From a virus, in the IMG/VR virus record IMGVR_UViG_3300046532_003215, positions 1 to 25,114 of that record: 25,114 bases of DNA, one strand, 5' to 3'. The position numbers and the translations under genes were made by a program. Below, piece by piece: positions 16,133-17,887 of this stretch. The notes beneath the pieces were generated by a model that saw nothing but the letters and a program-made list of their open reading frames with translations, made no database searches and was not told the origin of the DNA. The stretch's first letter is position 1. Every line of letters begins with the position of its first letter.

Positions 16133-16330
16133 TCAGAGGTGGCGATTTGTTTTATCGTATTTACTATTAATTTCATCTAGTTTATTATAACACGACTTTA
16201 CGTGTTTGTCAACCCATGTTGGTTTTGACAAAGACGCACCAATAACAAATAGAACTTGGAGATAAGATTTAAGTCCAAATTCTATTATTTTTCTACGCAA
16301 GAAGGCCGGACTTATATGACGTTTTTCCAT
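16133..16330 (-). CDS. Small basic ORF overlapping the endolysin end and gp43 promoter
   Basis: A 65-residue frame with a GAGAA ribosome site and MEKRHISPAFLRRKIIEFGL at the start, then a short hydrophobic stretch (YLQVLFVIGA). It overlaps the M15 gene by 38 bases and contains the whole gp43 promoter, so its coding status is less certain than its neighbours. Function unknown. Confidence 0.5.
   Translation of the reverse strand: MEKRHISPAFLRRKIIEFGLKSYLQVLFVIGASLSKPTWVDKHVKSCYNKLDEINSKYDKTNRHL
16184..16212 (-). promoter_or_regulatory. Sigma70-type promoter of gp43 with palindromic spacer
   Basis: TTGACA (16207-16212) and TATAAT (16184-16189) are perfect consensus boxes with 17 bases between. 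The spacer holds the 6-bp inverted repeat AACACG/CGTGTT (plus strand) around ACTTTA. Transcription would start near 16177, about 60 bases before the gp43 ATG. It lies inside the small ORF at 16133-16330. Confidence 0.8.
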
Positions 16331-16784
16331 TTATTCTCAATGCTGTCATTGTTTTACTACGATTGCTCCCGTCAAGGACATATGAACAATGAATCCATCC
16401 ACTATTTGGATCAACTCCGTCATAAAATTCTAGAATGAGTTGGTCAAATGTTAGATTCTTTTCAATCCATTTTGCGAGGTTTGGATTTGAAATTCGTGTT
16501 GATTCAAAGTCTGCTGCTTGACCATTACAATGTTGACTTGTCTTTGATCCGCCTACAGCCTTGTTCAGTGCAGGAGAACGATACCCACTGTTGATACGGA
16601 TAACTCCAAATTCTTCTCTTATTGGTTGTAAGATAAAATTACAGAGATTTGTTAAATTGATAACGTGTTCTCTTGTTGCATCGTTTGATATACCCAAACG
16701 GTCAGCGGTGGAACTTTTTATCATTTCTTGATACCCAAAGTTTTTTGTCAGGTGTCCGTTATAAGTTGGTATCTTGACTGCCAT
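16293..16784 (-). CDS. M15-family zinc peptidase, probable endolysin
   Basis: The 163-residue product is a VanY/Peptidase_M15_3-type D,D- or L,D-peptidase that cuts peptidoglycan stem peptides. INSGYRSPALNKAVGGSKTS leads into QHCNGQAADF, which supplies zinc ligands H85 and D92. ILEF supplies the catalytic Glu (E119), and WIHCSY the third ligand H132. There is no signal peptide, so it needs a holin or another release route, or it acts in the virion. It has an AGGAG ribosome site. Neighbours are a 99-residue protein and, further upstream, a two-helix membrane protein. Confidence 0.92.
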   Translation of the reverse strand: MAVKIPTYNGHLTKNFGYQEMIKSSTADRLGISNDATREHVINLTNLCNFILQPIREEFGVIRINSGYRSPALNKAVGGSKTSQHCNGQAADFESTRISNPNLAKWIEKNLTFDQLILEFYDGVDPNSGWIHCSYVLDGSNRSKTMTALRINGKTSYKSGLLA

Positions 16785-16799
16785 AATATTCTCCTAAGT

Positions 16800-17099
16800 T
16801 TATTTTATTTCAACTGAGCCAGTAGTAGGATCGAATATAACTGTAAATGTTTTTTCGATTCGTTTGAGTGTTCCGTCTGCTTTGACGATAGGTAACTTAC
16901 CCTCAACTGCGGCCATCAATGCCTCTTTGGCATTTTTGAATTCATGTGCGGGGTCTTCTTTTATAGCTTTGTCTAATTCTTTTTGTGCTTCTTTTGGAAG
17001 TAGATCATCTATCATACTTTCAACGTGTTCTGTTGCTAAGTCTGTAGCCTTGTCTATAACAAGACCAGAAATAACATTGAATAATAATAAAGGTAACAT
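16800..17099 (-). CDS. 99-residue protein upstream of the endolysin
   Basis: It starts MLPLLLFNVISGLVIDKATD, a short hydrophobic N-terminus too brief for a clear transmembrane helix. An amphipathic charged middle follows (EAQKELDKAIKEDPAHEF), then a beta-like end (IEKTFTVIFDPTTGSVEI). The ribosome site is AAGGAAT. Being directly before the M15 gene suggests a lysis-related role, but I recognise no family. Confidence 0.78.
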   Translation of the reverse strand: MLPLLLFNVISGLVIDKATDLATEHVESMIDDLLPKEAQKELDKAIKEDPAHEFKNAKEALMAAVEGKLPIVKADGTLKRIEKTFTVIFDPTTGSVEIK

Positions 17100-17114: not shown

Positions 17115-17204
17115 CTATAAATCACATCCACATGGAGTTTCCTCTGAACACTCACATGGTTCACAGGTACAATTAACACATTTACATTCTTCGTTATTAC
17201 ACAT
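17115..17204 (-). CDS. 29-residue metallothionein-like cysteine-rich protein
   Basis: The minus strand has AGGAG, five A's, then ATG at 17204 and a TAG at 17115. The product has 9 cysteines in 29 residues: MCNNEECKCVNCTCEPCEC, then SEETPCGCDL. The core CKCVNCTCEPCEC is the CxCxxCxCxxCxC pattern of metallothioneins, followed by another C-x-C. It therefore probably binds Zn or Cu through thiolate clusters in the cytoplasm. It lies between the Hsp20 terminator and the 99-residue gene, 15 bases before the latter, and is likely the first gene of the lysis-type operon. It could instead be a structural zinc peptide. Confidence 0.78.
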   Translation of the reverse strand: MCNNEECKCVNCTCEPCECSEETPCGCDL

Positions 17205-17238
17205 TTTTTCTCCTAATGATATGGGGTTGTTTCTGTAA

Positions 17239-17245
17239 TATTTAG
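17239..17245 (-). promoter_or_regulatory. Possible late promoter variant CTAAATA
   Basis: The minus strand reads GTATACTAAATATTACAG right after the Hsp20 terminator, about 35 bases before the metallothionein-like ATG. CTAAATA is close to the late consensus, and position and spacing match the late promoters at 8393 and 10545. It is weaker than those. Confidence 0.4.
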
Positions 17246-17250
17246 TATAC

Positions 17251-17287
17251 AAAAGAGCCCACCAGTATTACAAGTATACTGGTGGGC
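17251..17287 (-). terminator. Rho-independent terminator after hsp20
   Basis: A perfect 12-bp stem (GCCCACCAGTAT / ATACTGGTGGGC) with a 7-base loop is followed on the minus strand by TCTTTT. It begins 22 bases after the Hsp20 stop. Confidence 0.92.
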
Positions 17288-17308: not shown

Positions 17309-17887
17309 TTATTTAGAACGAATTCCTGGCTTGTCTTGAGGAGCAAGACGAGGGACTTTTGTCCACTTCTCTTCTCCTATGCGATTGAGTTCAGCCGCTG
17401 TCAATTTTTTAGTTGCGGCTCCAATAGGAATTAAACGTGCTCGTTTCTCCTCTGGAATTTGTTTCTCAAGTTCAACGGTTAACATTCCGTTAGTAAGGTT
17501 ACAACCCTTTACAACAATGTCATCAGAAAGAGTAAATTTTCTTTCAAATGCTCTACAGGCAATTCCCTTATGAACATAAGATGAGTCTGAAAGTATTTCT
17601 GTAGCCATCTCTACACCGGAATTGATTTTAGTACGAATTGTAAGGGTTTGTTCTTTCAATTCTACTTCCAAATCATCCTCATTAAAACCAGCAATCGCCA
17701 TTTCAATGAAAAAGAATTCTTCTCCAGTTTTTCGGATGTTGTAGGGGGGATATCCTTGATTGTTTGTAACGTGTTGCGTAGAATCTCCAAGCAAACGGTC
17801 AAACATTGAATCGAACCCTATTGAAAATCCTAGAGCCCTTTCGAAATCCCCAAAATTTGCAGGGACATGTGATGCGCGTAGTACCAT
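17309..17887 (-). CDS. Small heat-shock protein Hsp20/IbpA-like
   Basis: The 192-residue product has an alpha-crystallin domain. YPPYNIRKTGEEFFFIEMAI at about residues 46-65 is the IbpA-type start, followed by AGFNEDDLEVELKEQTLTI. The core ends with NGMLTVELEKQIPEE. ARLIPIG supplies the C-terminal I/L-x-I motif used in oligomer assembly. It is a holding chaperone for unfolded proteins, common in marine T4-like phages, perhaps helping virion assembly. The tail after about residue 155 is longer than in typical IbpA. The ribosome site AAGGAGG is strong but sits inside a predicted hairpin (17886-17913), and a terminator follows the gene. Confidence 0.93.
   Translation of the reverse strand: MVLRASHVPANFGDFERALGFSIGFDSMFDRLLGDSTQHVTNNQGYPPYNIRKTGEEFFFIEMAIAGFNEDDLEVELKEQTLTIRTKINSGVEMATEILSDSSYVHKGIACRAFERKFTLSDDIVVKGCNLTNGMLTVELEKQIPEEKRARLIPIGAATKKLTAAELNRIGEEKWTKVPRLAPQDKPGIRSK

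Follow-up and report, generated by a model that had tools for sequence, protein, structure and literature searches.

The gene at positions 17115-17204 of a 25 kb IMG/VR virus fragment (the window, meaning the whole stretch of DNA that was analysed) probably encodes a phage metallothionein-like miniprotein that is made late in infection and acts as a metal-thiolate buffer. Judged from the sequence comparisons described below, the ORF is a genuine coding gene that is conserved chiefly for its cysteines, and many marine phages of several lineages carry this tiny Cys-rich gene. The phage miniprotein is apparently a new, undescribed version within the known metallothionein-type proteins.

Gene, leader and neighborhood in the window

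The window contains T4-type genes for a family B polymerase, a UvsX-like recombinase, a clamp loader, RegA, a dUTPase and Hsp20. The following features were annotated around the miniprotein gene:

17309..17887, minus strand: Hsp20 small heat-shock protein gene, upstream neighbor (PF00011, 6e-14; phrog_432, 9e-36)
17257..17287, minus strand: hairpin resembling a rho-independent terminator, in the intergenic gap that separates hsp20 from the miniprotein gene (12 bp stem, TCTTTT tail; conserved in relatives)
17239..17245, minus strand: CTAAATA element, candidate T4-like late promoter (34 nt upstream of the start codon, its first base at -41)
17210..17214, minus strand: Shine-Dalgarno sequence AGGAG (5 nt 5′ of the ATG, within the conserved TTAGGAGAAAA block)
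17115..17204, minus strand: Cys-rich, metallothionein-like miniprotein gene (29 aa, 9 Cys; conserved in relatives)
16800..17099, minus strand: 99-aa gene, function not assigned, directly downstream (conserved cluster c14)
16293..16784, minus strand: M15 zinc peptidase/endolysin gene (PF08291, 2e-18; phrog_894 endolysin, 2e-42)

Translation of the miniprotein gene yields MCNNEECKCVNCTCEPCECSEETPCGCDL, in which the cysteines occupy positions 2, 7, 9, 12, 14, 17, 19, 25, and 27 and thus make up 31% of the residues, with a CxCxxCxCxxCxC core and 0 aromatic residues. Everything that a preliminary description of this DNA had read from the ORF, namely its 90 bases, a good ribosome site, the cysteine content, and the core, was reproduced by this translation, and the zinc peptidase is, as described there, the next but one gene. 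The ribosome site is strong. A TTG-started 45-aa form (17115-17252) was rejected, because its upstream part covers the conserved leader, of which the block of Shine-Dalgarno sequence and ATG is what stays. This block is kept even at loci in which inserted genes separate hsp20 from the miniprotein gene, and there much of the leader travels with the miniprotein gene.

For the intergenic region between hsp20 and the miniprotein gene, a fold z-score of -4.4 was obtained. Among 28 relatives, about 20 have the short motif [CT]TA[AT]ATA with its start between -41 and -43, and CTAAATA has been reported as the late promoter sequence in the T4-like phage Aeh1 (PMC1524935). Since the terminator-like hairpin after hsp20 is followed by CTAAATA as reported for Aeh1 late promoters, late expression of the miniprotein gene is plausible, in agreement with the late-infection timing proposed in the preliminary description.

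Several further genes were noted at related loci. Between hsp20 and the miniprotein gene, two loci carry a gene for a NicO-like membrane protein with an H-x4-DH motif (L013:2853-3494 and L015:4030-4698), which is possibly a phage metal transporter; its match to PF03824 had an E-value of 2e-4 in L013 (below cut-off) and 0.16 in L015. In several phages, genes for 2OG-Fe(II) oxygenases recur near the miniprotein (L043:4675-5241, L015:3212-4033, and the upstream gene in L158/L216). A holin identity of the small membrane proteins adjoining the miniprotein was not supported, and no metal sensor gene was seen beside the phage miniprotein gene.

Conservation and selection

Relatives were fetched by means of the Hsp20 protein, while the miniprotein itself played no part in their selection. 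A Cys-rich ORF was present downstream of hsp20 in 43 of the 47 close loci with enough downstream DNA, as found by the search for short Cys-rich ORFs at the same place that had been proposed as a check. In the other four (L027, L028, L038, and L050), the slot is filled by a membrane protein of ~110 aa starting with MCPVCW. This protein has a His-rich tail, with HGHG in L028 and L050, and no Pfam or PHROG family above cut-off was found for it.

Among 24 distinct hsp20-selected versions, pN/pS was 0.34, which indicates purifying selection. Five Cys columns were conserved in 24/24 versions and two more in 23/24 and 23/23, with switching between TGT and TGC at most near-fixed Cys columns. The frame and the cysteines, on whose conservation in relatives the preliminary description had made the gene depend, are thus both retained. 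The selection tests used the hsp20-selected set only; in pattern-found sequences (see below), the positions covered by the pattern are biased. In 400 window-sized Markov-1 sequences, the CxCxxCxCxxCxC core occurred 0 times and ATG ORFs of ≥20 aa with ≥25% Cys occurred at 0.0025 per window. By these chance estimates together with the conservation, a chance ORF was ruled out.

Distribution among viruses

A tblastn search of phages with the 29-mer gave no match, probably due to low-complexity masking, and DNA patterns and an HMM were used instead. Two degenerate DNA patterns each returned at least ~120 matching stretches, part of which were not the miniprotein gene; after removal of off-target ORFs, at least 95 distinct viral versions were obtained. 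The phage peptides of this family have 20-50 residues, nearly one-third of them Cys. For the 95 versions among the matches listed, the content was 28% Cys and 0.7% aromatic residues (22/3018) with no enrichment of Met or other sulfur, and exactly nine Cys were found in 76, while some others have 7-8 Cys or are one CXC short. In an NCTC[DE]PC core, residues other than the cysteines are conserved too, and the non-Cys positions outside this core vary. An acidic-then-hydrophobic C-terminal tail (DLVAAI, DQVAPV) is conserved in 21 of the 95 versions among the matches listed, including L168, L183, L190, L203, L206, and L218; from its sequence, it is possibly a docking or degradation signal.

The viral neighborhoods are of several unrelated types. 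In the window's type, the miniprotein gene follows hsp20. In the others it precedes a staphylococcal-nuclease-type gene and IscU, follows A-type carrier genes and IscU, adjoins tail-fibre-assembly-like genes, or lies near terminase genes. With the family profile, one copy was found per positive phage record tested. In a motif scan of seven cultured marine phages (HTVC034P, C48C1, Melnitz, HTVC008M, P-SSM4, ACG-2014f, and Sf-CH5), the gene was not recognized: two had no motif match, and the remainder were chance-like by sequence and by a reversed-pattern control. In C48C1, a 34-aa ORF after hsp20 is not Cys-rich.

Comparison with known metallothioneins

No model of Pfam, PHROGs, or NCBIfam matches the miniprotein, noting that HMMER bias filters can hide Cys-rich matches. 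Membership in PF02069 (SmtA) was rejected, because Pfam gave 0 families for the window peptide while SmtA itself was recognized as a control (2.5e-21). With hhalign, 11 columns were aligned to PF02069 at a probability of 24%. The likeness to SmtA/BmtA consists of a short CxCEPCxC stretch (KCACEPCLC in SmtA, NCTCEPCEC in the phage) and of one cellular relative of the miniprotein in an arsR/smtB-type operon, whereas the miniprotein has half the length and contains neither the histidine nor the YC..C portions found in the zinc fold of SmtA.

When 177,635 PDB sequences were searched with the family profile, the sole match was metallothionein 1m0j from a notothenioid fish (E 0.41, not significant alone). 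The variant MCNNEHCNCENCTCGSSCKCTAENQCGCE likewise had a sole match, metallothionein 1qjl from sea urchin (E 9.2), with all nine Cys aligned. Three shuffled queries gave no match or an unrelated peptide, one of them matching an unrelated protein at E 0.4. The layout C-x4-CXC-x2/3-CXC-x2/3-CXC-x4/5-CXC fits 63 of the 95 viral versions among the matches listed and equals that of the 1qjl beta-domain within one residue per gap; its chance probability for nine Cys in 28 residues in random order is 2.9e-6, which is a post-hoc figure. Shared with this animal beta-domain are the 28 residues and the nine Cys, arranged as one Cys followed by four CXC pairs. In contrast to it, the phage protein is encoded by a separate single-domain gene, is acidic instead of Lys-rich, and has a tighter middle spacing (x2) and the conserved NCTC[DE]PC core. 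Because neither PDB match amounts to significant sequence homology with the animal beta-domain, convergence is likely, and the phage miniprotein probably arose independently of animal metallothioneins.

Small fungal copper metallothioneins of the Neurospora type have 7 Cys and are Gly/Ser-rich and not acidic. They share with the miniprotein a single, very short CXC-rich chain, while the miniprotein has more Cys and an acidic chain. It also has the broad traits of metallothioneins, i.e. a small Cys-rich chain with repeated CXC/CXXC and few or no aromatic residues. The cysteine spacing, which the preliminary description had called typical of metallothioneins, matches the beta-domain layout. No description of a phage metallothionein was found in the open-licence literature, an earlier description elsewhere being possible.

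Cellular relatives

Most matches from scanning a genome collection were due to chance, but short homologues stood out clearly in Oscillospiraceae, Coriobacteriia, Defluviitaleaceae, Verrucomicrobiota, SAR202, Thaumarchaeota, and Tenericutes. The most telling context is that of L386, in which the stop codon of an ArsR/SmtB-type repressor gene overlaps the start of the miniprotein gene as ATGA; in L388 the miniprotein adjoins an LMWPc/ArsC-like gene, and SAR202 copies are located near FecCD/ABC/periplasmic-binding importer genes (L423, L427). In L397, L400, and L360, no clear metal gene adjoins the miniprotein, and the neighbors of other relatives were uninformative. The cellular metal contexts are few and each comes from single MAGs. 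Cellular versions are rare, because a profile search of about 600 bacterial genomes gave just three seed genomes and one weak, longer match. In Tenericutes MAGs (L398, L411), a 4Fe-4S ferredoxin carries the Cys-rich motif as a C-terminal fusion.

Probable metal-thiolate buffering

A metal-thiolate buffer is the best reading of the gene, because the PDB matches, which are not significant, were to metallothioneins only and the nine cysteines follow the beta-domain layout. We infer that the miniprotein binds metal. An animal beta-domain holds three divalent or about six monovalent/Cu(I) ions. The acidic, nearly aromatic-free phage chain would lack a core of its own and would fold around soft metal ions, which the nine thiolates would hold as the nine-Cys animal beta-domain does. 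Made late in infection, the peptide would keep free Zn, Cu, or similar ions buffered and thereby shield enzymes of both phage and host, among them Fe-S scaffolds, up to lysis. Also counted in favor were the pairing with IscU, A-type carrier, and nuclease genes in some phage lineages and the NicO-like gene just upstream at two hsp20-type loci; counted against were the small number of cellular metal contexts, the versions with 7-8 Cys or one CXC short, the lack of a metal sensor gene beside the phage gene, and the failure to recognize the gene in the seven cultured phages. Among the roles that the preliminary description had offered, metal buffering thus appears the best supported, on the strength of the cysteine layout and some of the cellular metal contexts.

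Fe-S assembly genes next to the miniprotein

IscU and A-type carriers of T4-like ocean phages were described earlier (Nishimura 2017, PMC5332604), in the main text of which the word metallothionein is absent. The miniprotein occurs in the same kind of phages and sits in several such Fe-S neighborhoods. The neighbors were confirmed by family matches to IscU (NifU_N, 9e-52), the A-type carrier (1e-9), and the nuclease (2e-11). Two cluster forms were observed around the miniprotein, either a staphylococcal-nuclease-type gene, a small membrane protein gene and IscU, or two A-type carriers and IscU (L160, L163, L183, L190, L200, L203, and L206).

From these neighborhoods, the miniprotein might be an Fe-S assembly partner of phage IscU and A-type carriers, for which it would carry or release iron, sulfur, or a protective metal instead of serving as a general metal buffer. 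In viral loci fetched by IscU, the miniprotein was found on the same strand at a distance of up to about 5 kb in 26 of 80, compared with 0 of 104 control viral loci, and IscU or A-type genes were present in 45 of 148 pattern-found loci among the matches listed. The miniprotein lies upstream of IscU in neighborhood types B and C and downstream in type D, and the cellular ferredoxin fusions also fit such a role. However, Fe-S assembly genes occurred in 0 of 51 hsp20-selected loci, which are partial loci of the window's own lineage (controls 0/104), and most IscU loci have no miniprotein near IscU. In the large phage records G003 and G005, both genes are present but far apart, and shared ancestry swells the co-occurrence counts. 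On balance, we regard this role as unlikely. Somewhat tentatively, it is conceivable that a metal-thiolate miniprotein common to several marine phage lineages works with the phages' own Fe-S assembly genes; it would shield IscU from Zn/Cu poisoning or hand over metal, and the dying cell would keep making Fe-S proteins for the phage.

Other possible functions

A zinc-stabilized interaction peptide, in which the metal is structural only and which binds a host or phage protein for takeover or regulation, would agree with the conservation of the NCTC[DE]PC core beyond its cysteines and with the acidic-hydrophobic tail, and many takeover proteins of T4-type phages are tiny. We consider it improbable, as nine Cys exceed the need of one zinc site, the non-Cys positions outside the core are variable, the neighborhoods are very different, and some cellular relatives are in metal contexts.

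The high cysteine content and, in the window's lineage, the position after the gene for a stress chaperone would also suit a peptide acting mainly as a thiol redox buffer or as a cysteine store for infection. This is highly unlikely, since a store would not need a fixed Cys spacing, other sulfur is not enriched, and the cellular contexts suggest a link to metals.

Zinc supply to the M15 endolysin two genes downstream, as the preliminary description had suggested for a same-strand gene in the same region whose product belongs to a zinc peptidase family, is hardly credible, because most loci with an 88-98% identical M15 have no miniprotein nearby, the near-identical-M15 loci with one are only those of the window's hsp20 type, and the IscU, tail-fibre, and terminase types have no M15 among the listed neighbors, L250 being an exception in which an M15-like gene and a divergent hsp20 adjoin the miniprotein.

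The M15 gene of the window itself has 70% DNA identity over 142 bases to the small Pelagibacter phage HTVC034P (35 kb), which suggests that this gene may have been exchanged between unlike phages. M15 proteins of 88-98% identity were found in many other contigs.

Implications

Across much of the ocean, growth is limited by metals. A probable metal buffer encoded by a recurrent one-copy gene of 20-50 codons would offer a direct, testable handle on viral control of trace metals in infected ocean microbes. The gene also shows that a widespread phage gene is overlooked by both gene callers and family libraries. Because it recurs next to Fe-S assembly genes, it can be tested whether phage metal handling is linked to Fe-S supply.
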